Origin: Desulfurococcaceae archaeon AG1
GTDB taxonomy: Archaea; Thermoproteota; Thermoprotei_A; Sulfolobales; AG1
Length of the DNA: 64,000 nt
NCBI GenBank assembly: GCA_003116855.1
Contig: BEWT01000005.1
Coordinates: forward strand, 62,001 to 126,000
Direction: 5' to 3'
In this document: in pieces, positions 37,949-57,568 of the stretch
Layout of the letters: the number at the start of each line of letters is the position of its first letter
Position numbering within the stretch: position 1 is the stretch's first letter
Made by a program: the position numbers and the translations under genes
Notes under the pieces: generated by a model
What the model saw: only the letters and a program-made list of their open reading frames with translations
Database searches by the model: none
What the model was told of the DNA's origin: nothing

Positions 37949-37953
37949 TAAGT

Positions 37954-39763: not shown

Positions 39764-41586
39764 TGTTTTCGAGCTTAGGGGATGTTATAAAGGATATGAT
39801 CATGTCGTGGAATAAAAACGTTATAATTAATCAGGATCTCTTGAATATGCAAGAGAGGATTGCATCTAAGATCTTTGATGAGGCTGTTAAAGTAGAGAAA
39901 AAAGGGTTGCTATTTATCTTGAGGGCGCCTACTGGATCTGGAAAGAGTGAAGTTTTTCTCGCACCATATTTCTGGCAGTGGATCAGAGGCGAATTTTTCT
40001 CTCCTAGAATGTATTTGGTAGAGCCTCTACATGCGCTGTTGGGGCATTTCAGAGACAGGGTTCAGCGATATGTAGACAGTCTTAGCCGGAAAATCGGCCT
40101 AAAAATATCTATTGGCGAGGATCACGGCGAGACTGTCAAAAGCACATATCTATATGGGGCGTTAATAACATTAACAACGGTAGATGCCTATGTTTACGGC
40201 TATGCGGCTAAGAGGGTTCAGGTCTGGAGAACGCGGGGAGGGGCTGTTACTGGGAGGTATACTATGCCTACCGGGTTGATCGTTTCATCACTATCTATTT
40301 TTGACGAGGCACACCTGATCCAGGATGAAGTATTCTTAGCACCAAGACTCATAAGCAGGATAGTATGTTACTTGGTCTCATCGGGAGCTATCGTGCTGAT
40401 CTCATCAGCTACACTGCCTATGTATCTGGAAAAGCTACTGGTAAGAGACACGTGTGGAAATAGCTTTCAGGAGACTTGGAAAGGTCCAGGTAGAAATATT
40501 ATTATAGATACCAGGCAGAGGCGTCTTCAAGATAGCATATTACAGGATCTCTCATGTGAAAGGAATAACCTCATAATAGTAAATACTATAGAAAGAGCCC
40601 AAAAGGTGTATAAAGCCGTAAAAGAGAAGTGCAGAGAAAGCAAGGTATATCTAGTTCATTCACTAATGCGGAAAGAAGATAGAGAAAGATCTCTTGAGTC
40701 TTTAAAAGAGTTAAAGGGACGATATGGGAAAAGCGAGGATTCACGAGAGGCTAAAGACAATGCTAAGATTACTCTGATAGGTACTCAAGCACTCGAAGTG
40801 GGTCTTGATTATGACTTTGACGTACTATATACGGAGCTGGCTCCTATAGATTCTATAATACAGAGAATAGGTAGAGTGGGTAGGAGAGGTAGAAGGGGTG
40901 AAGCCATTATATATCTGGACTTAGAGCATCATGCCCCATATTATCAAGCGCTGATTGATGAAAGTAAAAAAATTATTAAGGGACTCCCATCTATGAACTT
41001 AGATGATCCGAATAATATAAGTGACTTAGTTAATCAGGTATATAAGGAGACACTTATTGAAGAGTTATCAGATAGGGGGAATATTCTATACATTAAATTT
41101 ATTGAGTATATTAAAGATCTACATCTCCTAGCATACCCGCCTCAGAGAGTGTTTACTTTGAGGCCGTCGTTCTATATATATTTATCTCTAATAAGATCTA
41201 GCGATATGAAAGAAGTGGATAAGGACTATATCGTGGATCGAGATAGCATTGAGAAGGGCTTAATTAAATATTCAATATCGATGTTACGCGACCATGCCTT
41301 TGAGAGGCTGTTAAATATCCTTAAAAAGATTCGTGATAGGGATGCTTTATATATAGTTAAAGATTTCATTTGGGATGATCGTAGTGGAAAAGAATCTTTT
41401 AAGATTGAGAAAATAAGCAGTAATAATGATCAAGAAATTAGCGATGCTATTCATAGGAGGGAAACATTCGTGATAATATTAGATGAAATAAAGGATTTAT
41501 ACGAACCTTCCCTAGGATTAGATTATACGAGTATATCAACCGCTGAAGAGAAACCCGTGAGGAGAGAGGGAACTAGGAGGAGGTAG
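39763..41586 (+). CDS. cas3': Type I-A CRISPR helicase Cas3'
   Basis: Superfamily 2 helicase that unwinds target DNA after Cascade binding. Motif I is LRAPTGSGKSEV, motif II IFDEAHLIQDE, motif III ISSATLP, and motif VI IQRIGRVGRRGRRGEA. About 607 residues and without an HD nuclease domain, which is encoded by the next gene, as is usual for type I-A. ATG 39763 is preferred to TTG 39757. Confidence 0.92.
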   Translation: MFSSLGDVIKDMIMSWNKNVIINQDLLNMQERIASKIFDEAVKVEKKGLLFILRAPTGSGKSEVFLAPYFWQWIRGEFFSPRMYLVEPLHALLGHFRDRVQRYVDSLSRKIGLKISIGEDHGETVKSTYLYGALITLTTVDAYVYGYAAKRVQVWRTRGGAVTGRYTMPTGLIVSSLSIFDEAHLIQDEVFLAPRLISRIVCYLVSSGAIVLISSATLPMYLEKLLVRDTCGNSFQETWKGPGRNIIIDTRQRRLQDSILQDLSCERNNLIIVNTIERAQKVYKAVKEKCRESKVYLVHSLMRKEDRERSLESLKELKGRYGKSEDSREAKDNAKITLIGTQALEVGLDYDFDVLYTELAPIDSIIQRIGRVGRRGRRGEAIIYLDLEHHAPYYQALIDESKKIIKGLPSMNLDDPNNISDLVNQVYKETLIEELSDRGNILYIKFIEYIKDLHLLAYPPQRVFTLRPSFYIYLSLIRSSDMKEVDKDYIVDRDSIEKGLIKYSISMLRDHAFERLLNILKKIRDRDALYIVKDFIWDDRSGKESFKIEKISSNNDQEISDAIHRRETFVIILDEIKDLYEPSLGLDYTSISTAEEKPVRREGTRRR

Positions 41587-41591
41587 GCAAA

Positions 41592-42401
41592 ATGAGTTGT
41601 TGTGCATTTTACTGCGAAAAGGAATGTGTTGAGACATATTTGGAGCATGTGAAAAGAGCTATTAATGTTTGGCGTTCCCTCAAAAAATACTATTCTGGGG
41701 TCATTAAGAGGGTTCTAGGAACTTATGGATTTGATCCTATCGCTGTAGCTTTGATCACCCACGATCTGGGGAAGCTGCTGGAGATCTATAGGTTTCGTAG
41801 ATATAGATTTATATATAGACACGAGATTGTGGGGGCTTATGTTCTCTATAAGATGCTTATTGATGAAGATCGCTATTTAGCTACTATACTTAGTTTGGCT
41901 GTGATGCTCCACCATGAGTCAGGCATTATAGGTTATATCGGTGAGCTGGGTGAAAGATACTTAACGGTGACTACTTTGAGATCCATCTTAGAGAGATATT
42001 CTAGATATTTTATAGTAGATAAGGATTGCGATCTTGATATATTAGTTCAAGATCTAGCTAGTTTTGAGGAAATCGCTATGATCCGCGATAAGATCTATTC
42101 GATCAAAGATTTATTGAATAATTTAGGGAGTGAGAATGGCATCAGAGATTTCTTATCTAATGTAAAAAGACTGATAATAGATAGTAGCGTAGGATCATTG
42201 CACAGACTGCATATGGTAAGGGGTAGAGTAGCTGCGGTACTGCACTTGATGGTAGTCTCAGACTCGGTAGCCGCTCATATAGGTAGAAGTGGATTATGCA
42301 AAGGAGATAAAGACGAGGCCACATGGATCGTTAGAAGGGTTGCTGAAAATTCTGAACCGGTCTCGATAGACGAGTTAGAGAATATATTAAGGAGGTGTTA
42401 A
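41592..42401 (+). CDS. cas3'': Type I-A HD nuclease Cas3''
   Basis: Metal-dependent HD nuclease that degrades DNA opened by Cas3'. The HD signature is ALITHDLGKLLEIYRFRRYR with the downstream YRHEIVGAYVL and VMLHHESGI histidines. A Cys-rich N terminus (SCCAFYCEKECVETY) may bind zinc and is unusual. The 269 residues fit a stand-alone Cas3''. It follows cas3' by five bases and precedes cas8a by one. Confidence 0.88.
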   Translation: MSCCAFYCEKECVETYLEHVKRAINVWRSLKKYYSGVIKRVLGTYGFDPIAVALITHDLGKLLEIYRFRRYRFIYRHEIVGAYVLYKMLIDEDRYLATILSLAVMLHHESGIIGYIGELGERYLTVTTLRSILERYSRYFIVDKDCDLDILVQDLASFEEIAMIRDKIYSIKDLLNNLGSENGIRDFLSNVKRLIIDSSVGSLHRLHMVRGRVAAVLHLMVVSDSVAAHIGRSGLCKGDKDEATWIVRRVAENSEPVSIDELENILRRC

Positions 42402-42402
42402 G

Positions 42403-43536
42403 ATGGTATATACTCTATACACCCCTGGACACGGGCTAGTAGCTGATTCACTAGTCCTTCATGGAATCCTCAGGATTCTTGCATGGTGTGGGATTAATAA
42501 GGGAAAAGTTTCGAGATTTGGGGAGAGATTCGTTATAGAGTTAGAGGATAGCAAGCTTAATTGCGATAAAGATATTATTTATGAAATACTGGAGGAGGTC
42601 TTGATCTCTGTAGAGGAATATCTAAATGTTCGGGAGGAAAGAAGAGGCCATCGGGAAATAATTAATGTGTCAGATAGACTAAGTAAAATAAACTATGCCA
42701 ATATAAATAAACCAGTGCTCAGAAACTGGTTAAGCCAGATCTTAGACTCGGTAGAAGGATTCATAAGTCTTCAAGTATATAAAGATCCTAATCATAAAGA
42801 TAGGTTTGAGAAAAGTAGAAAGGGTGGGGGTTTAGCAACACTCTATCTCCCGCTCTCAGCCATATATGGTAAATATGTTCAGGAGAAAAAAGGGGTCTCA
42901 GAGAGCCCCTATAAGGTTTGTGATACATGCTTTATCACTATTAATATGGGGTTATTATTCGGTACGCATATAGTCCGGGTAGATAAAAAGGAAAAAAGTA
43001 GTGTTTACTATACAACTTTTATTGCTAGAGAGGATGTAGATATAAATGATTTATTGTTGCTCCAAAGAATGGGTGAGGGTTATCACCACGTTGAAAATGG
43101 AGCAGAGATACCTCTTATCTCAGCGCCCTTGATAGCTATTTCTCAGGGTGAGACTATAGCTTCTGTGGAGGATCCTTACAAGATCCAAGTCTTGACATGG
43201 TCTCTACAGTTATCTAATAATTTCCAAAGATCCTTAGGCTTATCAGTAATTGACTATGAACCTATCTATAGGTTTGTTGCAGAAATTAAATTGAGAGTAC
43301 CTACTTGGCCAAGATTCTTAAATGAATGTCTCCTCAGGTTTGAGGGTGGAGAAGCTGTTCTAGCGAGTCTCACAGAAACCTTGTTATTTGGAGGTGACAT
43401 ATATGTTGTATCAAGGATGCTGTCATCACATATTATGGATATTCTTAAGAAGGAGAATGAGTATCCTGAGGTGGGGAAATTATGTAAGATTGATGCCGAC
43501 GAGATCGTAAGATCTCTTCAGGAGATCCAAGGCTAG
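42403..43536 (+). CDS. cas8a2: Type I-A large subunit Cas8a (Csa4-like)
   Basis: Probable Cascade large subunit, which recognises the PAM in type I systems. The 377-residue protein begins MVYTLYTPGHGLVADSLVLHG, typical of Csa4/Cas8a2, and has a CDTC motif near residue 166 that may be part of a zinc site. It is last in the first operon; AAGGAGGTG lies just upstream of its ATG. It shows little likeness to the large-subunit candidate of the second operon (54146). Confidence 0.78.
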   Translation: MVYTLYTPGHGLVADSLVLHGILRILAWCGINKGKVSRFGERFVIELEDSKLNCDKDIIYEILEEVLISVEEYLNVREERRGHREIINVSDRLSKINYANINKPVLRNWLSQILDSVEGFISLQVYKDPNHKDRFEKSRKGGGLATLYLPLSAIYGKYVQEKKGVSESPYKVCDTCFITINMGLLFGTHIVRVDKKEKSSVYYTTFIAREDVDINDLLLLQRMGEGYHHVENGAEIPLISAPLIAISQGETIASVEDPYKIQVLTWSLQLSNNFQRSLGLSVIDYEPIYRFVAEIKLRVPTWPRFLNECLLRFEGGEAVLASLTETLLFGGDIYVVSRMLSSHIMDILKKENEYPEVGKLCKIDADEIVRSLQEIQG

Positions 43537-43543: not shown

Positions 43544-44053
43544 CTAGGTAAATGAAAGGAAAACAATAATCAGAACATTATTATCTTTAATTTGATACAT
43601 ACTACATAAGGCATTGCATAACTCTTGTAAATTATTTATATGCTTATATATGATATTAGAACAATTTAGAGAATATCTTATACTACTAGGATCCGATATA
43701 CCATATAGAATTAATACATCAACGGTTTTATTTATATCATTTAAACATATACGTTTCTTAATTTTACACTTTCTATTATATGTTTCAATATGTCTTTTTA
43801 AACCTTCTTCATTGGTAACTTCAATGGCTAATAGATTATCGTTGCAGTAAGCTATGCAATCAACACAATTGTCATCATATGTTTGACAATCTCTTGAGAA
43901 TTGGTCATCTATTACACTTTTCTTATATTCATTAACCTCGTTCTTGTCATGGGCGCAGATTGTATTTCCGCATGATATTCGTATAAATTTCCTCACATAT
44001 AGATTACTTACACTCTTAACACCTGTTCTTGCTACGCAGGGGCATCTACTCAT
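43544..44053 (-). CDS. Cysteine-rich protein, partner of the adjacent ATPase
   Basis: A 169-residue protein with 13 cysteines, several in pairs that could bind metal: CPC near the start, SCGNTIC, RDCQTYDDNCVDCIAYC, and KCKIKKRIC. The middle (NLLAIEVTNEEGLKRHIETY) has the look of a small alpha/beta domain, which could be a nuclease or toprim-like fold, but I see no certain catalytic motif. I do not recognise the family. It lies 40 bases after the ATPase gene on the same strand and is as A/T-rich, suggesting the two were acquired together. Confidence 0.5.
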   Translation of the reverse strand: MSRCPCVARTGVKSVSNLYVRKFIRISCGNTICAHDKNEVNEYKKSVIDDQFSRDCQTYDDNCVDCIAYCNDNLLAIEVTNEEGLKRHIETYNRKCKIKKRICLNDINKTVDVLILYGISDPSSIRYSLNCSNIIYKHINNLQELCNALCSMYQIKDNNVLIIVFLSFT

Positions 44054-44093
44054 TGTTTTGCACCATCTACATAAGGATCTATTCAGTTTATAT

Positions 44094-45062
44094 CTAATTA
44101 TAAAGATCTACAATCTCATCTGTATAGCTCTCTATGGCGGAAGACATAGGGTCTATGTTCTTAATTTCGTATCTAGTCTTTGAAGTTTTGGTTTTTGATC
44201 TTTCCGTAATTATTAGCGCCATATTTACAGGTTCGACATCTACATCAAGTTCTCTAGCAATTTTATCTACTCTCCTAAGCATGTCCAAGAATAGCAGGCT
44301 GTGTGTAATCAAGATTATCGGCGTACCACTTCTAGCTATCACATGAAGAAATAGTGCTAGTTGTTTCATCGCTATCGGATGTAAGCCTATGTCGGGTTCG
44401 TCAATTAGTACGAGCGATTGCTGTGGCTGGCTAGCTAAGTAAATCAGAATATTAATTAGCAGTCCTGATCTAAGATAGCTTGATGCTGAATATATTGCCG
44501 GGATCTCTCTTCCAACATCTATTCTCTCGATAAACCTCCTACCTTTTACGACGAACCTTCTAGAGAATAGTTTGTCCTCTAACTTATCTAATATCTCCTT
44601 TATATATGGATGAATTTTTCTTTCACGTGTACGTGGTGTTAAAAAATTTATTACTGAGAAAATAAATTCAGCATCAGAAGGCTGAAGAGGATAGAGCATG
44701 CTAAATCTTAGCAATGTATCAAAATAATATGGTATCATATAAGTCTTTCTATCAAATTCTCGTTTATCATTCTCGTAGTAACATGAAGGCTCTTCAGTAT
44801 CCCTTCCAGCAATACACTTTAAATGTAAGTCGGCTTTCTCACCTTTTACTTTAATTTCTATATTACCGAACATTTCAGCCAGATCATTCAGCTCGCTTTC
44901 AACAGGGGAACCCATGGATTTACTAAAGGAAACGGCATCATGAAATATTCTTAGAAATAAAGTCTTTCCGCTTCCAATATGACCAAAAAATACTGTTAGA
45001 TCACTAATCTCGAATATGCCCCTAGAAAGATTCCCTAGGACAAATTCAACATGATATGTCAT
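44094..45062 (-). CDS. ABC/RecF-like AAA ATPase (AAA_15/OLD-type)
   Basis: A 322-residue ATPase with Walker A FFGHIGSGKTLFL (residues about 25-37), a signature-like SSYLRSGLLINILIYLAS, Walker B LVLIDEPDIGLHPIAMKQL and an H-loop IILITHSLLFLD. This order, with DEPDIGLHP, is the mark of RecF/OLD-type single ATPases used in many defence systems (Gabija, Septu, PARIS, OLD). There is no fused nuclease or toprim. It is first in a two-gene minus-strand unit with the Cys-rich protein, wedged between a type I-A operon and the CRISPR arrays. A defence role is inferred from family and place. Confidence 0.72.
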   Translation of the reverse strand: MTYHVEFVLGNLSRGIFEISDLTVFFGHIGSGKTLFLRIFHDAVSFSKSMGSPVESELNDLAEMFGNIEIKVKGEKADLHLKCIAGRDTEEPSCYYENDKREFDRKTYMIPYYFDTLLRFSMLYPLQPSDAEFIFSVINFLTPRTRERKIHPYIKEILDKLEDKLFSRRFVVKGRRFIERIDVGREIPAIYSASSYLRSGLLINILIYLASQPQQSLVLIDEPDIGLHPIAMKQLALFLHVIARSGTPIILITHSLLFLDMLRRVDKIARELDVDVEPVNMALIITERSKTKTSKTRYEIKNIDPMSSAIESYTDEIVDLYN

Positions 45063-46048: not shown

Positions 46049-46396
46049 ATGGGGCTATCACCGCCAGAGCTGGTAGAGCTATCTATAGAAGATCCAGAGG
46101 ACATAATATCATCAGCACTAGACACAATACAAACACTAGAGGAACTCACAGAGGAAAAGAGAAGAATCTTAGAGACAATAGTGAGGAATCCGGGGATAAC
46201 GCCACCCCAGCTGGCAAGGATAATGCGGAAGAGTGAAAAAACAATAGCAAACCACATAACAGAACTCAAAAAACAAAACCTAGTAATAACGAGGGGAAAA
46301 ACAAACAACATACACCCAACAAAGCTGGGAACCATAATAGCAAAAATAATAAAACAAAAAACGAAGATCATCCCGGGATCAACCGGGAAAGAATAG
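46049..46396 (+). CDS. Winged-helix transcriptional regulator next to the CRISPR leader
   Basis: About 115 residues. An acidic N terminus (SIEDPEDIISSALDTIQ) precedes a winged helix-turn-helix of MarR/ArsR type: KRRILETIVRNPGITPPQLARIM, then SEKTIANHITELKKQNLVI and the wing TRGKTNNIHPTKLG. ATG 46049 gives the compact protein; the frame is open to 45971. The gene reads towards the first array and its last about ten codons lie inside the leader sequence, which is mirrored at the other array. A role in controlling array or cas transcription is inferred from position. Confidence 0.65.
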   Translation: MGLSPPELVELSIEDPEDIISSALDTIQTLEELTEEKRRILETIVRNPGITPPQLARIMRKSEKTIANHITELKKQNLVITRGKTNNIHPTKLGTIIAKIIKQKTKIIPGSTGKE

Positions 46397-46653
46397 AGAA
46401 AAAGATCCAAAGAGATCAAAAAGATCATATGATCAGAGATCAAAAAGAGATCCGAGGAGAAAAAGATCCCGAGGAATCATCCCAAAAGATCCCGGGATAC
46501 CCTAGATCAAAAACTTTTGAAGCTAATAAGCATTGCGGTCATCAAAAACACAGATCAAAAACTGGATCTTCGCTTATAAGCTGGATAAGAAATAAAATAG
46601 TAGAGCAAAACTGATCTACTATAGAACTGTATAAAACAAAAACAAATAGATCA
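46366..46653 (+). promoter_or_regulatory. Leader of the first CRISPR array
   Basis: About 290 bases, very rich in GATC and AAAA runs. It contains the 12-base palindrome GATCATATGATC (46423-46434) and GCTTATAAGC (46572-46581). From 46366 to about 46616 it is nearly identical, in inverted orientation, to the leader at 50815-51065. A degenerate repeat (GATCTACTATAGAACTG, about 46612-46628) lies at the junction, exactly where the other array's first repeat begins, followed by about 25 bases before the first intact repeat. Confidence 0.8.
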
Positions 46654-48427
46654 GATGATCTACTATAGAATTGAAAGGTGGACGTGAACTTCAACGCAGC
46701 ATCCCCGATAAAGCTTGTGGATGATCTACTATAGAATTGAAAGTAGAGCCAACCTCAACCACTACTGGCATGGCTCACCTCCGATGATCTACTATAGAAT
46801 TGAAAGGGGCTGTGAGTGTTATGGGCCTGGTTAGAGACTGGCTCATGCTGATGATCTACTATAGAATTGAAAGTGTGGAATAGCCATTACAAGGATAGCT
46901 GTATTACACTTTTCGGATGATCTACTATAGAATTGAAAGTTGTTTTCTGTAAATCACCTCTGCAACTATGTGGGGAGAGGGGATGATCTACTATAGAATT
47001 GAAAGCGATAACAAACACGGGCTGGATAATAACGACGAAGCCCCAGATGATCTACTATAGAATTGAAAGGCATCGACAGCGGCTTCAAGCATGTTATGTA
47101 TAGCCTGTTTCGATGATCTACTATAGAATTGAAAGCTCTAAGGTCTTGCATCAAATCTGGATTATACGAGTTATTGATGATCTACTATAGAATTGAAAGC
47201 AGGGAGGATAAGGTAGTGGTCATCACGGACGGTATTGACTAGATGATCTACTATAGAATTGAAAGCACGTGATAAGAAGCATAGCAGGCACAGAAGGGTT
47301 CAGATGATCTACTATAGAATTGAAAGGAATATCTGGTAGATCTCGTATCTCTCTTTCACATAGAGACGATGATCTACTATAGAATTGAAAGCGGTCTCAT
47401 AAGCGAGAGCGATAGAGTCGACATCACATATAGAGATGATCTACTATAGAATTGAAAGTATATTTATCCTTATGCATGCCCGCATCGACAGCGGCTTCAA
47501 GGATGATCTACTATAGAATTGAAAGGTATAGGTAGTCGTATAGTGCTTTTAGCTGTGATGTTTTTCGATGATCTACTATAGAATTGAAAGGTAGTGGTTG
47601 AGGTTGGCTCTAGGGTTGTTGGAAACAGATGATCTACTATAGAATTGAAAGTTCTATGTGTGTCTAGCCTTCGATCTCTTCCTTCTGCTGTGATGATCTA
47701 CTATAGAATTGAAAGGAAGATATGCTTCTTGAGCTCGATGCCGCTGCTGAAAAACTGATGATCTACTATAGAATTGAAAGATCGGCTAAGCATTATGAAT
47801 ATCTAGGTAGGCTATTGAGATGATCTACTATAGAATTGAAAGCATATTACCAGCCGTGTCTCTTCAGACCTTTGAGGATCTCGGATGATCTACTATAGAA
47901 TTGAAAGATTGTGAATAGATATGTCTTCTCATCGCCTTCCAGGATATGTTGATGATCTACTATAGAATTGAAAGCTGGGCAAGCTCTCTCCCAACACCTT
48001 CAAGAAGAGATGCGAATTGATGATCTACTATAGAATTGAAAGTTAGCCGCTTTCAGCAACACATACTCCTCCTCTGACAGTTTGGATGATCTACTATAGA
48101 ATTGAAAGAATGTGAGAGAGAGCCTCGCAAAGGCACTCGTATACCACATGATGATCTACTATAGAATTGAAAGGATATATAGATCCAGCTGCCCCTGCAT
48201 TTATGTTTACAATCGAGATGATCTACTATAGAATTGAAAGCTATGGTTTTAGGTTTCTACAGGAAGTTACTGAAAAGATGATCTACTATAGAATTGAAAG
48301 ACCACACAACCCCACTCAATTCTTATCAGAGAGAGATAAGATGATCTACTATAGAATTGAAAGTTAGACAAGAGGGATCTCAAATCGCCTTGGATTCTAG
48401 CACGATGATCTACTATAGAATTGAAAG
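46654..48427 (+). CRISPR. CRISPR array 1: 28 repeats of 24 bases, 27 spacers
   Basis: Repeats share the core TCTACTATAGAAT, begin GATGA and end TTGAAAG; all copies I read are identical. Period is about 61-68 bases, spacers 36-44. Orientation on the plus strand follows from the leader on the left and the 3' ATTGAAAG, the usual crenarchaeal crRNA 5' tag. TCTA-CTA-TAGA can form a small hairpin for Cas6. Spacers 7 (47070-47111) and 13 (47459-47501) share 20 bases; spacers 2 (46744-46782) and 15 (47591-47627) share 22 bases on opposite strands. The last repeat is separated from array 2 by one 33-base spacer. Confidence 0.97.
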
Positions 48428-48460
48428 ATCCCTCACAGAGGCAACATATGCAGGCACATA
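48428..48460. other. Single spacer shared by the two convergent arrays
   Basis: These 33 bases lie between the last repeat of array 1 (plus) and the last repeat of array 2 (minus). They are shorter than typical spacers here (36-45). Either strand could yield a crRNA carrying its own array's 5' tag. The flanking repeats are inverted relative to each other and could fold into a long hairpin in either transcript. Confidence 0.8.
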
Positions 48461-50814
48461 CCTTCCATTCTATAGTAGAATTACCAGGACAGCAGGCGTT
48501 ATGAGAAAGAGCGAAAACGTTATCCCTTCCATTCTATAGTAGAATTACACATAGCAAGAAGATATAGCTATAGAGACATGGCACAGGGTGCCTTCCATTC
48601 TATAGTAGAATTACCGTGATCAAGAGCCCTGTGGATCTTATACACATGATCCTCCTTCCATTCTATAGTAGAATTACACACACCTAATCCATTTTCTGTG
48701 GTACCGCTTATAAATCCGCCTTCCATTCTATAGTAGAATTACTTGGATCAATGGTTTTTCATTTGGCATATGCTTATATACCTTCCATTCTATAGTAGAA
48801 TTACCGGTTGAGGGGGCTGCGGCGCCCCAGGCGCAGCCCGCAGCTGCCTTCCATTCTATAGTAGAATTACACCAGGCAATGAAGGAGCTCGCCGTGGAGA
48901 GCGATAAGACCTTCCATTCTATAGTAGAATTACATGTTTTTTATCGCCTCTCTATTTCTTCTCACCCATTCGCCTTCCATTCTATAGTAGAATTACAGTG
49001 CAGAGAACCATACCCACACCAATAATTTATACAACCTTCCATTCTATAGTAGAATTACCCCAGATACCAAGCATGGATGAGGAGAAGGAATATACTTCCT
49101 TCCATTCTATAGTAGAATTACAGTAGATATAATAACCCAGGGAGCCACAAGCGTTACCCTCCCTTCCATTCTATAGTAGAATTACTTGCTCTTAGGGCTC
49201 TCTCTGATTATCTTTCTCTGGATCACCTTCCATTCTATAGTAGAATTACAGGATCACAGCTACAAGGGCTATCACAAGGATCTGGGCTCCTTCCATTCTA
49301 TAGTAGAATTACTTGCTATAACTTCAGCTGGTCTTGTAACTACTCTTTCAGCCCTTCCATTCTATAGTAGAATTACTAGAGAATGCAAGAAAACTCCTTG
49401 AAGACTGTTGAACTCGTACCTTCCATTCTATAGTAGAATTACTGTTTTCACCACATATAATTATAGTTAGGATACTTATAAATCCTTCCATTCTATAGTA
49501 GAATTACTATATATCTAAGGGGTAAGATAGTCAAAGCATATATAAGTATAAGCCTTCCATTCTATAGTAGAATTACCATACTGGCGATACATTCCTACCC
49601 CACCTAAACAGGCTAGCCCCTTCCATTCTATAGTAGAATTACCTACCCGAAGCCGAGATAGCATTCATAGACGAGGTATTCAACCTTCCATTCTATAGTA
49701 GAATTACTCTTGGCAACCTGGAGAGCTGTTGGGTTCGCGTATGGTGTCCTTCCATTCTATAGTAGAATTACAAGGTTCTCTACTACTATGCGTTTATCAA
49801 CGAGAGGTTTACCTTCCATTCTATAGTAGAATTACTGTGTGTGGGTGGTTTAGAGGGTTTAAGGTGGTTTGTGTTTCCTTCCATTCTATAGTAGAATTAC
49901 GATCTTTGTGTTCTCGTCGATTCTGATTACTACATCGTCTACCTTCCATTCTATAGTAGAATTACCTAGTTCGGTTTTTTTGTCTTCTGATTGTGGGATG
50001 TCTATGCTCCTTCCATTCTATAGTAGAATTACGCTTTGTCTGTGCTTGCCTTCATAGGTATTAGGCGTGTCACCTTCCATTCTATAGTAGAATTACATAA
50101 CCAGCCGACGAAACAATGGTATGGGGTTATTGACAACCTTCCATTCTATAGTAGAATTACCTAAACGTGAAGATCTCCAACCCAGATATATCCATTTTGA
50201 AGACCTTCCATTCTATAGTAGAATTACTATACTTTTACTCCTTCTTGCTTGCACCAGATATATTGAAGCCCTTCCATTCTATAGTAGAATTACTCTATCG
50301 AATAGCTCCCTTAATGTGACTAGACTCTTTATTACCTTCCATTCTATAGTAGAATTACAGAACTCAAAGGCCCCCCAGGTAATGCTTGCTAAGTCGACTC
50401 CTTCCATTCTATAGTAGAATTACAGCTGTGAGGAGTGTTGTGAAGGCTAGGGAGGATCTTCTGACCTTCCATTCTATAGTAGAATTACTAGCCTAGGCAC
50501 GGCCTATCCCACCTCTCGCAAAGCTCTAACCTTCCATTCTATAGTAGAATTACGTTGCTGGTGTGAGTGTTTCTGTGTTTATTATTACTGTTGCTCCTTC
50601 CATTCTATAGTAGAATTACCCTCAACAAGAAAATCAGGGAGATCTACAACCTTGACCCACCTTCCATTCTATAGTAGAATTACTCCTGTAGTTTCTTTCT
50701 CATTCTTGCATGTAGCTTGCCGAGCCTTCCATTCTATAGTAGAATTACCCTCTCTGCAATCATTAGCGTTCGAGATCGTCTTACAGAAAACCTTCCATTC
50801 TATAGTAGAATTAC
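48461..50814 (-). CRISPR. CRISPR array 2: 37 repeats of 24 bases, 36 spacers, opposite strand
   Basis: Read on the minus strand, repeats begin GTAATTC, share the core TCTACTATAGAAT with array 1, and end GGAAGG; they differ from array 1 repeats at six of 24 positions (2-5, 19, 23). On the plus strand each begins CCTTCCATTC. Copies look identical throughout. Period is about 62-69 bases. The leader at 50815-51065 sets the minus-strand orientation. The 5' tag would be ATGGAAGG. The TTCTA-CTA-TAGAA hairpin is one base pair longer than in array 1. Confidence 0.97.
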
Positions 50815-51065
50815 CGATCAATTTACTCTAATATTTTATTTCTTATCCAGCTTATAAGCGAAGATCCAGCTTTTGATCTATGTTTTTGATGACCACAACA
50901 CTTATTAGCTTCAAAGATTTTTGATCTAGATCATCCTGGGATCTTCCGGGATGATCCCTCGAGATCTTTTTTCTCTCGGATCTCTTTTTGATCTCTGATC
51001 ATATGATCTTTTTGATCTCTTTGGATCTTTTTCTCTATTCTTTCCCGGTTGATTCCGGGATGATC
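50815..51065 (-). promoter_or_regulatory. Leader of CRISPR array 2
   Basis: Inverted near-copy of the array 1 leader, including the palindromes GCTTATAAGC (50850-50859) and GATCATATGATC (50997-51008). Its outer end still encodes, on the minus strand, the last codons of the winged-helix regulator (IIPESTGKE and stop; the intact gene reads IIPGSTGKE), showing the duplicated unit included that gene's 3' end. 51066-51157 is A/T-rich filler before csa3. Confidence 0.82.
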
Positions 51066-51157
51066 TATGTTTGTGCGTTGTTTTGTTTTTTGTCACATGA
51101 TCTATTCTTTTGTGTTTCATCATAGTTTTTTATCTTTTCATCTGTATCTATTGCTTT

Positions 51158-51838
51158 TTATTTATGTGCTTGCTGTGTTGCCATGTATCTTCCTCTCGAT
51201 ATTCTTGTTACCTGTCCTTTTTCCTCTAAATTCTTCAATATTTTATATGTATATTGCTTCGTCCATCTATAGCCTTTCTCCTCAAGTTTTCTATGTATCT
51301 CTGATAGCTTTGCCTTCCCCAGCTCTTTGAGTGTTTCGAGAACCACTATCTCTGGCTTCACAGCCTCTCTACCATATATATGTGTTACTAGTTCTCCAAC
51401 GATCTCTCCCCTGGCTGTGATCTCTGGTCCTCCTCCCTCGACCTCCCACACCAATGAGACCCTCGCAAGCTTTGGTATTATATGCACTATAGCCATGGCT
51501 GTGTATGAGACCAGAGCCCTCGTACCGCCTGCCAGCGATATTATCAACTCCTCGTTCTCTCTGAGCTCTTTCGAAGCCCTCTCAACCAGATCCAGTATCT
51601 TCTTCACAGCATCGCCGGGATCTAGGATCTCTATTACAATAGGCTCTACACGGATTTTGAGAACCTGCAATATCTTCGATAGATCTGCAATAGCGGCGCT
51701 AGACCTCTGATCCACGTTACCCCTAATGCTTGAGACTAGGAGATATGCTATCCTAACCATATCCCTCTCATACATCCTAGAAACGATCCTGACTATATGT
51801 CCTATGTCGAAGCCAAGAGCGGCAATCAATATTGACAT
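51158..51838 (-). CDS. csa3: CRISPR-associated regulator Csa3 (CARF + winged helix)
   Basis: A 226-residue protein with an N-terminal Rossmann-like CARF domain (SILIAALGFDIGHIVRIVSRM ... ELIISLAGGTRALVSYTAMA, with the GGTR ligand loop) and a C-terminal winged helix (ETLKELGKAKLSEIHRKLEEKG, YTYKILKNLEEKGQVTRI). Csa3 proteins control adaptation or interference genes and may sense cyclic oligonucleotides. The gene reads towards array 2 and is divergent from the csa5-cas7 operon, so 51839-51956 is probably a shared control region; AGTTTTATAAACT there is palindromic. Confidence 0.88.
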   Translation of the reverse strand: MSILIAALGFDIGHIVRIVSRMYERDMVRIAYLLVSSIRGNVDQRSSAAIADLSKILQVLKIRVEPIVIEILDPGDAVKKILDLVERASKELRENEELIISLAGGTRALVSYTAMAIVHIIPKLARVSLVWEVEGGGPEITARGEIVGELVTHIYGREAVKPEIVVLETLKELGKAKLSEIHRKLEEKGYRWTKQYTYKILKNLEEKGQVTRISRGRYMATQQAHK

Positions 51839-51956: not shown

Positions 51957-52322
51957 TTGGATAGGGATTTAGAGGAGAAGAGGTTGGAAAAAACTACGCG
52001 TGGGAGGGGTTCTACAGAGTTGGAGGGGATATACAGGGTGTTCTTCGTCGTGGCTGGAGAGGGGAGGATAACGCTTCTGGATCGAATTATGAAGTCGGAA
52101 GACCCTGATGATCTGATCGCAACGTTCTATGAGGCACTTAGGATGGCGAAGAGCATAGAGAAGAATATAGAGATATCTGAGGAGGAGATAGAGGAAGTGA
52201 TGAAGAGACCAAGGGTACTTAAGAGACTGGCTGTTAGGGCTGCAGCAGTAGCATATAGGAGAGAATCAGAACAGCAGAAGAAGGAGAAGGAGAAGGCTGA
52301 GGAGGTGAGCGAAGGTGGCTGA
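51957..52322 (+). CDS. csa5: Type I-A small subunit Csa5 (Cas11a)
   Basis: A 121-residue, mainly helical protein first in the second I-A operon. It has ELEGIYRVFFVVAGEGRITLLDRI then DPDDLIATFYEALRMAKSIEK, followed by a charged C-terminal tail (SEQQKKEKEKAEEVSEGG). Csa5 stabilises the Cascade R-loop. The start is TTG 51957 after GGAGGGGG. It overlaps cas7 by 8 bases. Confidence 0.75.
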   Translation: MDRDLEEKRLEKTTRGRGSTELEGIYRVFFVVAGEGRITLLDRIMKSEDPDDLIATFYEALRMAKSIEKNIEISEEEIEEVMKRPRVLKRLAVRAAAVAYRRESEQQKKEKEKAEEVSEGG

Positions 52323-53445
52323 AAAGGCTAAAGATTCCTTTGTATCGATTGTGCTGAGGCTAGCGATAGATTCGGAAGCCATGAACATGGTAGAGGCTAT
52401 CGGTGCCTTCACACCACATAGATCAGCACCAATCGTTGTTAGGATAGGGGACGGGCTAAGAGTTGTAAGAGCTCCAGCGGCGTCTGGACAGATGATGGCA
52501 TATGCATACCAGAAAGCCCTGGTCGAACTTGCATCAAAAGCAAACACAAATATGCCCCTCTGCGATGACTGCAGAAACTACAAGACACTCGGAGGGTTTG
52601 TGAAGAGGGCGACAGCAGATCCCGACAGCTTTAAAGACGGGGAGTTCAGCGTCATAGAAACATGTGTGGTAGAGGATCTATCTGGTTTCATGATCGTTGG
52701 TAAGGGTAGGAGGGGTAGTAGGAGGGAGAGGCGGAAAGGCGGTGAGGAGGAAGAGGGGGAAGAGGCTGCAGGGCTTAGAAGAACATCACCAGTATGGTTC
52801 AGCTACCTGCTTCCAGAACCGCATCTCACAAGCTTCAAATTCGAGCCACAGTTCCACGTTAGGTTCAATGTGAAGGAGGGTAACAACCCATTCACAGTTG
52901 AGAATGCAGCTGCCATCTACACTCTAGCCATCGCGATCGATGTGAAGGCGATCGGTAGGGCAGCAGATAGGAATGGAGTGATACGCGAGGTGGGGGATAG
53001 GGATAGAAGGGTAGCTCTAGCTCTTGAGGCTCTGAGAGCAGTCTTCCATGGACAGCTCTTCGGGGCTAAGAAGTCCAGAAACCTCTTCAGATTCGAGATT
53101 GTTGGCGGTGCTGCATCGATATCAAATCCGCTGCCATTCACACTATCCCCACCCATCCGAGGCGATGAAAGCTATGTCGCGAAATCATATAGAAGGGCTA
53201 GATCCATGGTCGCTGGGCTCTCAAGAACCTCGATAGCACAAGAGATAAATATGGCATACTTCGATGGAGATGGTATAGCAGGCGATCTGAAGAGCATCGT
53301 AGAATCTGTGGTGGGCCAGGGTGCAAAAGCTGAAGGAGATAGATACTGCGAAAAAGTAGAGGCTGGAAGTATATGTCTTGAAAGGGTCAGAGACTTCGAC
53401 CAAATGATCGACTGGATACGCAACAAGATCTTTGGGAAAGCCTGA
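52315..53445 (+). CDS. cas7: Type I-A Cascade backbone protein Cas7 (Csa2)
   Basis: A 376-residue Cas7: SFVSIVLRLAIDSEAMNMVEA, APAASGQMMAYAYQKALVELA, then RTSPVWFSYLLPEPHLTSFKF and FHVRFN. A CDDC pair lies near residue 83. Residues about 129-154 are an insert of alternating Arg/Lys-rich and Glu-rich runs (GRRGSRRERRKGGEEEEGEE) not seen in the first operon's Cas7. GTG 52315 is the start; the stop overlaps the cas5 ATG. Confidence 0.88.
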   Translation: MAEKAKDSFVSIVLRLAIDSEAMNMVEAIGAFTPHRSAPIVVRIGDGLRVVRAPAASGQMMAYAYQKALVELASKANTNMPLCDDCRNYKTLGGFVKRATADPDSFKDGEFSVIETCVVEDLSGFMIVGKGRRGSRRERRKGGEEEEGEEAAGLRRTSPVWFSYLLPEPHLTSFKFEPQFHVRFNVKEGNNPFTVENAAAIYTLAIAIDVKAIGRAADRNGVIREVGDRDRRVALALEALRAVFHGQLFGAKKSRNLFRFEIVGGAASISNPLPFTLSPPIRGDESYVAKSYRRARSMVAGLSRTSIAQEINMAYFDGDGIAGDLKSIVESVVGQGAKAEGDRYCEKVEAGSICLERVRDFDQMIDWIRNKIFGKA

Positions 53446-54134
53446 TGATCGGTGCGATCATCTCTCTAGAACTCTTCTCACCGCTCACAATCAGAATACC
53501 ATACGCTGTATACCACAGCGGCTCATACCCACTCCCACCCCCATCAACTATTATGGGGGCTATAGCGTATCCATATGCCAGGGATAAGGGGTTGCCGGAG
53601 AGGATGAGTAGAAAGGTGATTAAAGATGTTGCTAAGAAGGTTCTGTATGCCTCGGCAGCATATACATCTATTCTTGCTTCAAGCAAGCAGCTTGAGAGGT
53701 TCTACCAAGCAATATATCAGAAACCAGATCGAAGAGAGCTCCCCAGGTTTAGGTGGGGCGTGTATTTCCACGAGGGCTATATTGTTTTTTCAAAGCTATT
53801 GATCTTCATCCTGCTCAGGGACGAAGAACTTGTTAGATATCTATATTGTATTGCGAGGGTGGGGAGGAAGGAGACAATAGCATCTGTGGATAAGGTCATC
53901 ATAGGCAAGCCCACAAAGACAAAGGATATAGCTAGATGCTACCCGTTCTACCATCCAAAGGGCATCGCCGCATTTTCGGCAGGCTATATCGAGTTCAGCG
54001 ATATGGGTAAGAGATATGTGATCCCGATCTCGTATGGCACGGATGCAAAGATAGATATAGCCCCGGCAAGCAACGGAGCGATTTTCTGGGTTGGGGATTA
54101 CTGTGTGCCAGCACCTGATATAGCTATATCATAG
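53445..54134 (+). CDS. cas5a: Type I-A Cascade protein Cas5
   Basis: A 229-residue Cas5 with the N-terminal AIISLELFSPLTIRIPYAVYHSG and the glycine-rich YPLPPPSTIMGAIAYPYARDKG, the same order as Cas5 of the first operon (PLPIPSTIVGAIGYAY) but diverged. It is coupled at both ends: its ATG overlaps the cas7 stop and its stop overlaps the next open frame. Confidence 0.88.
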   Translation: MIGAIISLELFSPLTIRIPYAVYHSGSYPLPPPSTIMGAIAYPYARDKGLPERMSRKVIKDVAKKVLYASAAYTSILASSKQLERFYQAIYQKPDRRELPRFRWGVYFHEGYIVFSKLLIFILLRDEELVRYLYCIARVGRKETIASVDKVIIGKPTKTKDIARCYPFYHPKGIAAFSAGYIEFSDMGKRYVIPISYGTDAKIDIAPASNGAIFWVGDYCVPAPDIAIS

Positions 54135-54145
54135 TGGGTGGGAGG

Positions 54146-55150
54146 ATGGTTAGGGTGATACGAGTATCATATAGCAATATAAACGATATCAGGGGCACAC
54201 TGGCATACTGGTTTGCAAACACAGCATGCCAGATCCTCCTAGGTCAGAGGGAATGTGATGTGGCTGGGGAAGCGTATGATTTTCTACCGACAATCGCATC
54301 GAGGCTAGAGGCTATAAAAGACGAGCTCCTAGGTATAAAGGCTGAACACGTATTCCAGGAGATCAAAGTCACCAACAAATATAGGATCAGTGTTGGGGAC
54401 GCAATATCGATTCTAACATCGACAAGCCCCAGGGAGGAGTTCTTCTATGCACCATCACACCTCTTCATAGAGTATGGCGAGTTTCTAGAGGGCTTTCTAA
54501 ACACTGATATCTATAAACGTGATAAGATATTCATAAGCAACATCGTCATATCACTAGCACTCGTTGGAGCGGCGATGGCATACTCATACACAGTATCTAG
54601 GGGAGGGGTGAATGTGCATGGCTATATAGGCTATACAGGGGTGTCAATGATTAAAGGAGAGGCGTTGAATAGATATCGAGCGTTGAGAAAAAGCAGCAAC
54701 GTGATAAGGATATTAGCTATGAATGAAGCGCCATGGGAGACTGTTGAGCTTGCGGTTGCATCAATACTGGTTAGAGACGACCTGAAGCCAGCTGAGTGGG
54801 ATACGTTTGAGGTTGTGGAGGCATATAGAGGCACCAGTAAAATCAACATTGCAAGCTATAGAGTATCACATATATCAACACTGGCATCGGTGATTAGCAG
54901 GGAATTCGCAGAGGGGTTCCTAGAGCTTGTGAATAGATATGGGAGGGATAAGAGTGTTAAAAAGCTGGCAGATCATATAGCTAGAAACATATATCTATAC
55001 TCACTCTATAGAGACCCTCAATATATGTATCAAGCCCTGAGACCTCTGATGTCCAAAGGCATTGACGAGAGGTTCCAAGAGGTCATAGCTGGCTGGGGAG
55101 ACATAGCGAATAAGATGCTGGGGATTGCGGGATGGTGGGCAGGGGAATAG
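54146..55150 (+). CDS. cas8a: Type I-A large subunit, Cas8a family (divergent)
   Basis: A protein of about 334 residues in the large-subunit position between cas5 and cas3'. It begins MVRVIRVSYSNINDIRGTLAYWF and contains FISNIVISLALVGAAMAYSYTVSRGG. It lacks the zinc-type CxxC of the first operon's Cas8a. The call rests mainly on position and size; which Cas8a subgroup it belongs to is unclear. ATG 54146 follows GGGTGGGAGG; GTG 54134 is possible. It overlaps cas3' by 19 bases. Confidence 0.65.
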   Translation: MVRVIRVSYSNINDIRGTLAYWFANTACQILLGQRECDVAGEAYDFLPTIASRLEAIKDELLGIKAEHVFQEIKVTNKYRISVGDAISILTSTSPREEFFYAPSHLFIEYGEFLEGFLNTDIYKRDKIFISNIVISLALVGAAMAYSYTVSRGGVNVHGYIGYTGVSMIKGEALNRYRALRKSSNVIRILAMNEAPWETVELAVASILVRDDLKPAEWDTFEVVEAYRGTSKINIASYRVSHISTLASVISREFAEGFLELVNRYGRDKSVKKLADHIARNIYLYSLYRDPQYMYQALRPLMSKGIDERFQEVIAGWGDIANKMLGIAGWWAGE

Positions 55151-56886
55151 ATCCTGGAGATGCAGATAGAATCGCTGGGAAGATGGTTGAAAAGAATGCA
55201 TGGATAGCTGTGCTGAGACTACCAACAGGCTTTGGCAAATCAACATCATCCCCGATTATCTTCAACAGACTCCACGGGCTTGGGCTGGCTGATAGAATGA
55301 TCCATGTGCTGCCGCTCAGAGCCATCGTGGAGGATCTATATGTTAGGTTTTTATGCAGCGAAGCCAGAGAAGACCTCAGAGGCGTGTATGAAGCACTTAT
55401 AGGGGCAGGTATTGGGAGGGGTGATATAGCATTCCAATCAGGTGATCTTCTGCTTAAACACAGCACCATCGAATGTAGGGAGGGGGAGAGCTATAGTGCT
55501 AAGAAGGATCCTCTGTTTGATTCGAGAGCTGTTATAACAACACTAGACTCGTTCATGATGAATCTTATGAAGATCCCAGTGGCAGAGGTCTTCAAGGCGA
55601 AGAGGCACTATGCATCCCCACTAGCCAGGATATTTGTATCGGCTGTCTTCCTGGATGAGGCACACTATGTATCAGGTGACCCAAGATCTATTGCATCCAC
55701 AAAACTACTGGCAGAATATGCCCAGAATGCTAGAGTACCCCTAATACTTATGAGTGCAACAATAGGCAGAAACCACATAGAGAAGATCGTTGGGAACCAT
55801 CTGAAAGCAATCACAGCATGCCTGGAGGGGGACAGGATCGGGGGTAGATGCGATGTAGAAATAGATGGTAAGGAGTTCATCGAAAAGGCATCGTCTATCA
55901 GCTGGAGGATACGGATGATAGATGAGGATATGGTTGTGGATAAGGCTGCCGAGCTTGTCGGGATAGGCAAAAGGGTTCTGATACTGGTTAGAAGCGTCAA
56001 AAGATCTGCAGAGATATATAGGAGGCTGAGGGAGAGGGGTGTCGAGTCTCGACTACTGCATGCAGGGCTAACCCTCAGAGATAGGGGGGAGGTGCTTTCC
56101 GATGTCAGATCTATGCTGGAGACGAAGAGAGGATTCGCCCTGGTAGCAACGCCTGTGATCAACGCAGGTGTTGATATGAGCTTCGACGCAGCCATAGTCG
56201 AGGCTGCTGACTTCACATCTATAATCCAGATATGCGGGAGAGTCTGTAGATCTGAGCTATGTGGAGATGCGGAGGTATTCATAGTGGCACAGAGATCGAG
56301 CAAATATGTTTTGGATGAGATCGATAAACTCAAAAATATAGACCTGAGGATACCGTTCGATATAAAAGATAGAAAGGGGTATGCAGTACTCCTAGAAATA
56401 GATGCTAGCAACACAGATATAAAGGGAGTTGGGCGTGAGATCCTAGATCTCTTCGGCCTCTTCTACCCATTCTATGTATCGCAGAAAGATATCACGAAAT
56501 ACCTCCTAGAGAATATGGGATCCCCGGCTAGGAGGAGCCTGCTGATCCAGGTATTCATAGATCCTGGCAGGGATGGGATAGAACTGAGGGATGTCCTGGG
56601 CAAAATGATCACGGTGGATGCGTGGGATGTGAAGAGATGCAGAGAATATGCCGATAGCTATCTAGAGATCGCTGAGGAGAATGGAGAACTAGTGGTTAGA
56701 GAGAACAAGGAGGCTTGGGAGAGGATAAGGATGAACCTTGAGCACCCGTTGAGACTATATAGAAGCCTGTTCCATGCAAGGACGAGTGGATCGAGATATG
56801 TGGTTGCAGGAGGCATTCTGATCAGGGGTGAAGGTTATGACAAAGAAGCCGGGCTGCTATGCATACAAGAAGGGGGAGAGGGCTGA
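55132..56886 (+). CDS. cas3': Type I-A CRISPR helicase Cas3'
   Basis: A 584-residue superfamily 2 helicase. Motif I is LRLPTGFGKSTSS, motif II FLDEAHYVSGD, motif III LMSATIG, and motif VI IIQICGRVCRSEL. There is no HD domain; cas3'' follows with a 50-base overlap. It is arranged like the first operon's helicase but is clearly distinct in sequence (GFGKS against GSGKS). Confidence 0.92.
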   Translation: MVGRGIDPGDADRIAGKMVEKNAWIAVLRLPTGFGKSTSSPIIFNRLHGLGLADRMIHVLPLRAIVEDLYVRFLCSEAREDLRGVYEALIGAGIGRGDIAFQSGDLLLKHSTIECREGESYSAKKDPLFDSRAVITTLDSFMMNLMKIPVAEVFKAKRHYASPLARIFVSAVFLDEAHYVSGDPRSIASTKLLAEYAQNARVPLILMSATIGRNHIEKIVGNHLKAITACLEGDRIGGRCDVEIDGKEFIEKASSISWRIRMIDEDMVVDKAAELVGIGKRVLILVRSVKRSAEIYRRLRERGVESRLLHAGLTLRDRGEVLSDVRSMLETKRGFALVATPVINAGVDMSFDAAIVEAADFTSIIQICGRVCRSELCGDAEVFIVAQRSSKYVLDEIDKLKNIDLRIPFDIKDRKGYAVLLEIDASNTDIKGVGREILDLFGLFYPFYVSQKDITKYLLENMGSPARRSLLIQVFIDPGRDGIELRDVLGKMITVDAWDVKRCREYADSYLEIAEENGELVVRENKEAWERIRMNLEHPLRLYRSLFHARTSGSRYVVAGGILIRGEGYDKEAGLLCIQEGGEG

Positions 56887-57568
56887 GAATCTGGCTGAAC
56901 ATCTAGCTGGTGTTGCCCGATGCTGCAGAGAGCACAAGCTCCTAGCACCTGTTGCATCGAAGATAGCTAGGAACTATGGGTTGTCCAAGGATTATGTGGA
57001 GGATATGATTGTAGCTGCATGTCTGCTCCACGACATCGGAAAGGCTGATAGGAAATACCAGGATCTATGTCTATCCAGTGGGTGTGAGGAATTTTCTGGA
57101 CACGATGTGAGGGGCTATAAGCTGGCTGCAACGGCCCTTAAAAGGCTTGAGGATTCGTCTAGGATTGCTGTCAATACCGGGATGGCTGATGTCCTGAATA
57201 TAGCACTGCTAATCCCGATCCTCATGCATCACTACTTCCAGAGGGGTATAGATAATCTGAGGAATGATCTGGATATAATCGATGAGATAGATGTACACCC
57301 ACAATGCATAGAGGATCTCCACATGGTGCTCGAACTAAGAACAGAGCTATTTAAAAACGAATATGTGGAGAACCTAGTGTCCACTGTGTTAGGGCTTATC
57401 ACAGATGGTAGGGTAAGGCTTGTCCCGGTATATCGTTTCGCCAGTGTACCAGATCTTCTGAATGATCTGCAGTCATATACAAACCTACTCCAGAAACACA
57501 GTGCCATAGCTGTGACAGCGATTCTGAATGAATGTGATGGGTGGGTTGCACGTGTTAGGAGGGGATAG
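56837..57568 (+). CDS. cas3'': Type I-A HD nuclease Cas3''
   Basis: An HD nuclease of about 243 residues. RAENLAEHLAGVARCCREH supplies the first histidine, AACLLHDIGKADRKYQDL the HD pair, FSGHDVRGYKL and ILMHHYFQ the later histidines. ATG 56837 follows GGGGTGAAGG; GTG 56828 is possible. The gene overlaps both neighbours. Confidence 0.9.
   Translation: MTKKPGCYAYKKGERAENLAEHLAGVARCCREHKLLAPVASKIARNYGLSKDYVEDMIVAACLLHDIGKADRKYQDLCLSSGCEEFSGHDVRGYKLAATALKRLEDSSRIAVNTGMADVLNIALLIPILMHHYFQRGIDNLRNDLDIIDEIDVHPQCIEDLHMVLELRTELFKNEYVENLVSTVLGLITDGRVRLVPVYRFASVPDLLNDLQSYTNLLQKHSAIAVTAILNECDGWVARVRRG

Follow-up and report, generated by a model that had tools for sequence, protein, structure and literature searches.

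Two type I-A CRISPR-Cas modules with arrays meeting tail to tail in Desulfurococcaceae archaeon AG1

Introduction

In the I-A(2) region of Saccharolobus solfataricus, csa3b and csa3a flank CRISPR locus C (PMC8699464). Arrays of Sulfolobales are known to undergo deletion, duplication and inter-locus recombination (PMC4390879), antisense transcription within them is known and is repressed by Cbp1/Cren7 (PMC10883916), and a CCN motif is known for crenarchaeal family I arrays (PMC3468723). No description of tail-to-tail, convergent or inverted CRISPR arrays was found in the literature, which was largely open-access, so that this absence is weak evidence. Here we describe a locus whose best reading is a pair of canonical I-A modules with the tails of their arrays joined. 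The window analysed is a stretch of 64,000 nucleotides (positions 62,001 to 126,000) of contig BEWT01000005.1, which is 179,643 bp long and comes from an uncultured archaeon.

Results

The features of the locus, in window coordinates, were as follows.

37694..43536, + strand, type I-A effector operon 1 (Pfam, PADLOC): cas11a 37694-37948, cas7a 37927-39075, cas5a 39053-39763, cas3' 39757-41586, cas3'' 41592-42401, cas8a/csa4 42403-43536
43544..45062, - strand, two genes between operon 1 and the left leader: a 169-aa ORF and an AAA ATPase gene (AAA_21/AAA_15)
45372-45395, - strand, solitary left-type repeat, an exact copy of the array L repeat
45971-46396, + strand, winged-helix gene, 141 aa (115 aa from the ATG at 46049)
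46342-46653, + strand, left leader, from the inverted repeat and a six-leader alignment
46654-48427, + strand, array L: 28 copies of GATGATCTACTATAGAATTGAAAG, all exact, and 27 spacers of 36-44 nt
48428-48460, no strand, junction spacer of 33 nt, common to both terminal repeats
48461-50814, - strand, array R: 37 copies of GTAATTCTACTATAGAATGGAAGG (read on -), all exact, and 36 spacers of 38-45 nt
50815-51089, - strand, right leader, the mirror image of the left leader
51158-51838, - strand, csa3, 226 aa, CARF plus winged helix, divergent from operon 2
51957..58481, + strand, type I-A effector operon 2 (NCBIfam, PADLOC): cas11a/csa5 51957-52322, cas7a 52315-53445, cas5a 53445-54134, cas8a (divergent) 54134-55150, cas3' 55132-56886, cas3'' 56828-57568, cas6 57528-58481

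A first-pass annotation of this DNA had given the order as winged-helix gene, leader, array L (+), 33-nt spacer, array R (-), mirrored leader and csa3, which proved exact to the base, and the repeat coordinates bore out its statement that both arrays face inwards and have a single terminal spacer in common. The leaders that it called mirrored indeed form a 268-nt inverted repeat, 88% complementary (46342-46609 vs. 50822-51089), bracketing both arrays. Each leader is followed by direct repeats (28 and 37, all perfect) with spacers that are all unique within arrays L and R, as in type I-A systems; the pattern is not due to chance, with 65 repeats, two 24-mers and a spacing of 60-69 nt.

Each flank also carries a complete type I-A effector operon, overlooked in that annotation. 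Both operons hold the signature set of the type (cas8a/csa4, cas11a/csa5, cas7a/csa2, cas5a and split cas3'/cas3''). Operon 1 matched Pfam DevR (2.4e-53), Cas_Csa4 (4.5e-41) and Cas3-like_C_2 (6.7e-29), and PADLOC called Cas11a, Cas7a, Cas5a, Cas3a2 and Cas8a; operon 2 matched the NCBIfam models of Cas7/Csa2 (7.1e-42), Cas3' (7.5e-37) and Cas3'' (1.7e-14) and the PADLOC models of Cas11a (3.5e-9), Cas8a (2.5e-8, divergent) and Cas6a (3.3e-35), its cas6 being the only copy found in the window. For adaptation, the genome has a single cas1, located outside the window on contig C15 between two head-to-head arrays (89 repeats on -, cas1, 107 repeats on +).

The right csa3 combines the CARF domain and the C-terminal winged helix of the Csa3 family. 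It matched TIGR01884 over positions 2-197 of 202 (9.8e-15; 54.5 bits, slightly under the curated cut-off of 60.2) and Pfam PF22662 Csa3_N over positions 3-109 of 120 (7.6e-8), with additional wHTH matches, and homologues 30-33% identical adjoin cas7 in other genomes. The left winged-helix protein lacks the N-terminal CARF domain of the family: PADLOC CARF3 models aligned through the wHTH part only (6.6e-23), the TIGR01884 match was limited to positions 124-202, and the Csa3 structures 2wte/6wxq/6w11 of the PDB were matched in the C-terminal domain (about 2e-8). These alignments identify the gene as the Csa3 DNA-binding domain minus CARF and not as a full Csa3, and its product may work like that domain. 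Both sister-species copies of the gene are broken by a stop codon or frameshift.

The two leaders are 85% alike across 293 aligned columns. The left one presents a TCCC-N10-GGGA palindrome at 46371-46388, a TATA box CTTATAAG 81 nt before repeat 1 and a degenerate pseudo-repeat near 46611-46628; the right one has its palindrome at 51043-51060 and no pseudo-repeat, and therefore its TATA box stands just 44 nt before repeat 1. In both, the palindrome, confined within the window to these leaders, lies 202 nt upstream of the same TATA box. In all six readable leaders of the genus it precedes a CTTATA box by 201-211 nt, and GATC[A/G] closes each leader where the first repeat begins. The proposal that different regulators control the two ends was thus left unsupported, with TATA box and palindrome common to both leaders and a genome with a single cas1; because the same elements recur in both leaders and in all six of the genus, one common regulator would be the simpler reading.

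None of the 402 other spacers measured in the genus, which are 35-49 nt long, is as short as the junction spacer, and this abnormal length suggests recombination rather than normal acquisition. Perfect distal repeats were considered as a sign of truncation and dropped: in three of the four other arrays of the genus the last repeats are perfect as well, so that such repeats are no proof of it. The R-type repeat did not occur in the genome beyond array R; its 20-nt core was absent from about 85,000 species genomes, from which records very close to the source genome were possibly excluded, and the repeat was not found in viral collections.

A degenerate repeat end (AAATTGAAAG) lies near 45428-45437, about 65 bp from the solitary left-type repeat. 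Together, these two elements represent the remains of a minus-strand array. They lie at a breakpoint of synteny, the region collinear with the sister species stopping at 45371. An Rfam search of the window returned tRNAs only, with no match at the solitary-repeat elements tested.

Two overlapping spacer pairs in array L showed a CCN protospacer-adjacent motif at three of three testable ends, and array R had no overlapping spacers from which such a motif could be read. No protospacers were found for array R spacers, and no phage target matched the spacers. The sole plasmid match, rejected, corresponded to the CRISPR-like repeats of pNOB8 itself; a 20-mer of spacers L7/L13 in two viral contigs was judged a chance match, stopping at 20-21 nt, and three further spacer-seed scans gave no matches.

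One other genome, that of the sister species, represents the genus. There, 3.2 kb of the left module are collinear at 84% identity, the 169-aa ORF and the AAA ATPase gene are both syntenic, and the left-type array has 62 repeats, a normal end and nothing fused to it. The arrangement of the right module, with csa3 diverging from the cas7 operon and a same-strand array coming next, occurs as a single module in two genomes, G017 and G014, members of two other families in the order. The right flank (58.4-64 kb) had its best family match, at 93%, in a 3.4-kb contig of the sister genome that is too short for context. The layout had been presented as a unit not previously described; no description was found and no second example in the genomes searched, but it is not conserved as a unit, the sister species having a free-standing left module and other families a free-standing right-type module.

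The first-pass annotation had also proposed searching related genomes for the same inverted array pair. None appeared among 229 class genomes or about 85,000 species genomes, in junction scans covering some repeat types only. Tail-to-tail GAAAG arrays were sought in 59 relatives and the 229 class genomes, and all matches were chance occurrences within spacers or non-arrays. Repeats ending in TAGAAAG gave tail-to-tail matches in 66 of the 229 genomes, a reversed control also giving many; only one of the 30 loci examined was within arrays, and these were head-to-head with leaders between. A pattern scan of the species genomes for GGATTGAAA[CG] junctions returned 65 stretches, none with two genuine opposed arrays. 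Three were within arrays: one inverted unit (Fervidicola) and two contig-end cases resembling foldbacks. Each component of the locus is familiar, and it is their fused layout that is rare.

Archaeal RNA polymerase tends to terminate at T-runs, the first of which on the + strand beyond the junction lie at 48755 and 48937; antisense RNA over the part of each array nearest the junction would for this reason be plausible, and little transcription would be expected to cross. For each array to yield antisense RNA of the other, as suggested earlier, transcription would have to continue beyond the junction. Depletion of T-runs was also tried as an indicator of transcription direction and dropped, the counts being too small.

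Discussion

We consider it likely that two ordinary I-A modules became connected through the distal ends of their arrays, which are the oldest, and that each array still works normally. The left module would comprise effector operon 1, the winged-helix gene, its leader and array L, and the right module effector operon 2, csa3, its leader and array R; a recombination or end-joining event would have left a truncated, probably hybrid, spacer of 33 nt. The leader promoter of each array would drive pre-crRNA inwards, Cas6 would cut each transcript at the repeats of its own array, and the independent arrays would give crRNAs with AUUGAAAG handles (array L, +) and AUGGAAGG handles (array R, -). New spacers would enter beside each array's own leader, at opposite outer ends, via the single Cas1 machinery, and the tract would therefore lengthen on both outer sides while its centre stays frozen. 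Some antisense RNA may arise near the junction from convergent read-through, but antisense repeat transcripts would not be expected to be crRNAs.

It is unlikely that array R was instead born in place, from an inverted leader copy beside the end of array L and an array grown outwards from a founder repeat, the 33-nt spacer being the sequence separating that repeat from the last L repeat. The R and L leaders are clearly paralogous, as the 88% inverted repeat reveals, the two have derived positions in common at both ends as compared to the sister species, and the first R repeat occupies the place of the pseudo-repeat in other leaders; the confinement of the R repeat to array R and a junction without normal spacer length also agree with such an origin. 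In other families, however, csa3 and an operon-2-like operon come with an array of their own, so that a resident array would be expected, and at its middle positions the R leader resembles the sister species more than it does L, a pattern that agrees better with old paralogues and patches of conversion than with one recent copy.

We also regard as rather improbable an assembly artefact joining arrays from different places or strains. The source contig belongs to a 28-contig draft genome, CRISPR arrays are notorious sites of misassembly, no more than two other tail-to-tail-like junctions were seen in arrays beside contig ends and both resemble foldback artefacts, and an abnormally short spacer would also be compatible with misjoining. 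However, the L and R repeats have just a 12-nt inverted core in common, far below usual assembly k-mers, and both flanks are long and gene-bearing. The core 16-mer of the junction spacer occurs once in the genome; because this spacer is unique and, in contrast with a foldback artefact, without self-complementarity, and because L and R spacers do not overlap, the junction is not a foldback.

A dual outward-growing cassette, its arrays having separate leaders and separate I-A effector sets but being maintained as a convergent unit with leader exchange, a possible flip and antisense damping between the arrays, seems highly unlikely. Least credible is a maintained regulatory device, based on mutual antisense tuning or on leader recombination flipping the 4.2-kb cassette and swapping array-regulator adjacency: the inverted repeat around the cassette could recombine, the mosaic likeness of the two leaders hints at past exchange and a Csa3-type regulator stands at each end, but the layout is unconserved in every genome searched, the candidate control elements of both leaders are the same, the sister-species copies of the winged-helix gene are broken, and no flip is seen, the L-type array of that species being on the same side.

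If the joining of two ordinary modules is real, the locus would be a natural test of how far a CRISPR array tolerates convergent transcription and of whether Cas1-Cas2 and the regulators treat near-identical leaders alike at opposite ends of a tract; it would illustrate the merging of arrays and I-A modules, and array fusion would join the known changes of Sulfolobales arrays (PMC4390879). The locus alone gives no pointer to a new defence mechanism, and the fused layout probably does not work in a new way.

Among known systems, the Fervidicola ferrireducens array likewise places a reversed repeat beside a forward repeat with one spacer between, but as a single inverted unit in a long one-way array, without a second array or leader there. 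Head-to-head pairs around adaptation genes, such as that of contig C15, also bring together in one locus a pair of opposed arrays whose leaders are homologous; those leaders face away from a common centre, whereas the present arrays meet at their tails and have their leaders on the outside. The S. solfataricus I-A(2) region (PMC8699464) shares the flanking of the array by two Csa3-type genes and a leader TCCC-N-GGGA palindrome, with one array there vs. two opposed arrays here, and with N8 next to BRE/TATA there vs. N10 about 200 nt upstream here. Crenarchaeal (Sulfolobales-type) I-A modules are the closest match in repeat length (24 nt), spacer length (about 35-46 nt), leader length (200-400 nt), the CCN motif of array L, a csa3 gene that adjoins the leader and diverges from the cas7 operon, and full effector sets; in contrast with them, this locus holds two modules that share a single array tract, their tails separated by one spacer, and a right repeat variant (ending in GAATGGAAGG) that is unique to it.

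Organization of the array pair

The anatomy of the array pair matched exactly that described in the first-pass annotation, with 28 repeats on the + strand, one 33-nt spacer and 37 repeats on the - strand. The leaders were mirrored as claimed, forming an inverted repeat of 268 nt (88%), with a regulator gene behind each, a winged-helix gene on the left and csa3 on the right. A full type I-A effector operon, absent from that annotation, was also present on each side of the pair.

Features of the locus (window positions)
37694-43536: operon 1, type I-A effector operon left of the pair (cas11a, cas7a, cas5a, cas3', cas3'', cas8a/csa4)
46342-46609: L leader, arm of the inverted repeat
46654-48427, + strand: array L, 28 identical repeats GATGATCTACTATAGAATTGAAAG
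48428-48460: junction spacer, single, 33 nt, between two facing terminal repeats
48461-50814, - strand: array R, 37 identical repeats GTAATTCTACTATAGAATGGAAGG
50822-51089: R leader, arm of the inverted repeat
51957-58481: operon 2, type I-A effector operon right of the pair (cas11a, cas7a, cas5a, divergent cas8a, cas3', cas3'', cas6)

Of the window proteins tested, none was recognised as an adaptation protein. One cas1 gene was present in the genome (2.0 Mb in 28 contigs, 95% complete); it lay on contig C15, flanked by arrays of 89 (-) and 107 (+) repeats placed head to head. To judge by the genomes and CRISPR types encountered, the small family of this archaeon falls in a large order, apparently the Sulfolobales sensu GTDB. 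A tRNA gene and, after it, an integrase gene of archaeal phage type occupied 34147-35710, which suggests an integrated element adjoining operon 1; a second attachment site was not found within the window, save a similar tRNA end at 21471. On the right flank, stretches 58703-59358 and 63803-63930 recurred at tens of sites in the genome of the sister species (around 75-94% identical) and are probably small mobile or repeated elements.

Leaders and regulators

All six readable leaders of the genus had a CTTATA box preceded, at 201-211 nt, by a TCCC-N10-GGGA palindrome, and GATC[A/G] as their last bases before the first repeat. Within the window the palindrome was confined to the two leaders (two copies in L, one in R, against 1.3 expected by chance), a count that is not significant alone. 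It resembles TCCC-N8-GGGA, reported as a Csa3a-associated palindrome in leaders of S. solfataricus (PMC8699464), but differs in spacing and position, and we consider it a candidate Csa3 site. Since both leaders bear the same palindrome, CTTATA box and leader end, the proposal that different regulators control the opposite ends was left unsupported.

The left regulator consisted of a Csa3 DNA-binding domain without the CARF domain. In the sister species this CARF-less winged-helix gene lay upstream of both leaders (L064, L065), one copy broken by a stop codon and the other by a deletion/frameshift, with 87-89% conservation otherwise. In a different genus of the family (L083), an array had next to it a 47% identical winged-helix stretch without interruption. 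The two leaders of the window had derived positions in common against the sister species at both ends, and the middle of the R leader was closer to that species. Such a mosaic, based on few sites, would fit an exchange of patches between the inverted leaders.

Junction spacer

The junction spacer (33 nt) was shorter than any of 402 other spacers measured in this genome and the sister species (35-49 nt); its core 16-mer occurred once in the genome, and at most 9 nt were in common with any other spacer. Such features would be expected of two broken spacers merged into a hybrid, and also of a stub left when an inverted leader landed beside the array. The repeats flanking the junction were both perfect, which cannot separate these two origins because three of four other arrays here also had perfect distal ends. 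A foldback origin was ruled out, as the junction was not self-complementary, the two repeats differed and the spacer sets of L and R did not overlap.

Proposed working of the locus

From these elements we infer that each leader promoter would transcribe its own array inwards, with Cas6 cutting each transcript at its own repeats, and that new spacers would be added to both arrays at their outer ends, leaving the oldest part of each at the centre. Overlapping spacers in array L were flanked by CCN at three of three ends, a match to the known crenarchaeal motif (PMC3468723); given this motif and the like ends of both leaders, one Cas1 presumably serves both arrays. The first T-runs of at least five would be met at 48755 and 48937 by L transcripts and at 47750 by R transcripts, and read-through antisense RNA near the junction is possible. 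Antisense transcription inside arrays is known in related archaea, where Cbp1-Cren7 suppresses it (PMC10883916).

Solitary repeats and similarity to a plasmid

Solitary exact copies of CRISPR repeats were dispersed in the sister species (L067-L072, L075-L077) and in another relative, G004 (L078-L082). Each stood at the 3' terminus of a non-coding element of around 130-150 nt that is conserved and apparently structured; in many cases GGGAGGAGGTCAG came next, with unique sequence beyond it. The elements tested gave no match in Rfam. Their appearance is that of a scattered mobile or small-RNA element with a CRISPR repeat as its end. The genome of the window also had a solitary copy of the C15-type repeat, at C11:29227 (L012 near 9228), far from any array. 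The conjugative plasmid pNOB8 (L159, 23568-23929) presented, at a site without annotated genes, a stretch similar to array L, which is probably a small series of such repeats.

Rarity of the arrangement and its halves in relatives

Facing repeats separated by one spacer were searched for with patterns in which each of the two repeats had to show an exact 3' end and the gap had to measure 28 to 52 or 55 nt. No genuine opposed array pair was obtained for GAAAG-type repeats in 229 genomes of the class, for TAGAAAG-type repeats in the same genomes (30 loci examined), or for GGATTGAAA[CG]-type repeats in around 85,000 species genomes; repeats of other types, end repeats that are degenerate and gaps of greater length escape these patterns, convergent pairs further apart fall outside them, and the window locus itself would have been overlooked, its array R repeats ending in GAAGG. 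An internal irregularity of an unusual sort was present in an array of Fervidicola ferrireducens, where one repeat unit alone (L163, position 16004) is inverted; the array exceeds 280 repeats, two neighbouring stretches of 20 kb holding 114 and 169 copies on the minus strand.

The left module was syntenic with the sister species (G001, the only same-genus genome compared), the identity being 84% over the genes csa4 to the ATPase. Next in G001 came the winged-helix region, then a homologue of the leader, and last an array with 62 copies of the array L repeat, which ended normally around 170 nt short of the contig end and had no second array joined to it. A relic pair of - strand repeats at 45372-45440, 1.25 kb before array L, lay exactly where collinearity with the sister species stops, and the neighbouring segment 45639-45892 was inverted between the two species. 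The right-type repeat was absent from the G001 array loci read, csa3 had no match in G001, and the cas7 matches of that genome to operon 2 were weak. The right layout, an effector operon divergent from csa3 with the array on the csa3 strand, occurred as a single module in G017 and G014, genomes belonging to two other families.

The first-pass annotation had called the architecture one not known to be described as a unit. A description was not found in the literature covered, which left out most subscription papers. The halves stand alone in relatives. The stronger reading, in which the pair is kept as a convergent or invertible unit of regulation, is unlikely, nothing found here speaking for it. 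Assuming that the assembly holds, the arrangement is real and rare and its parts are well known; with the left half free-standing in G001 and the right layout single in G017 and G014, the locus is accordingly best seen as a joining of two canonical modules, array tail to array tail, rather than a device that has been conserved whole.
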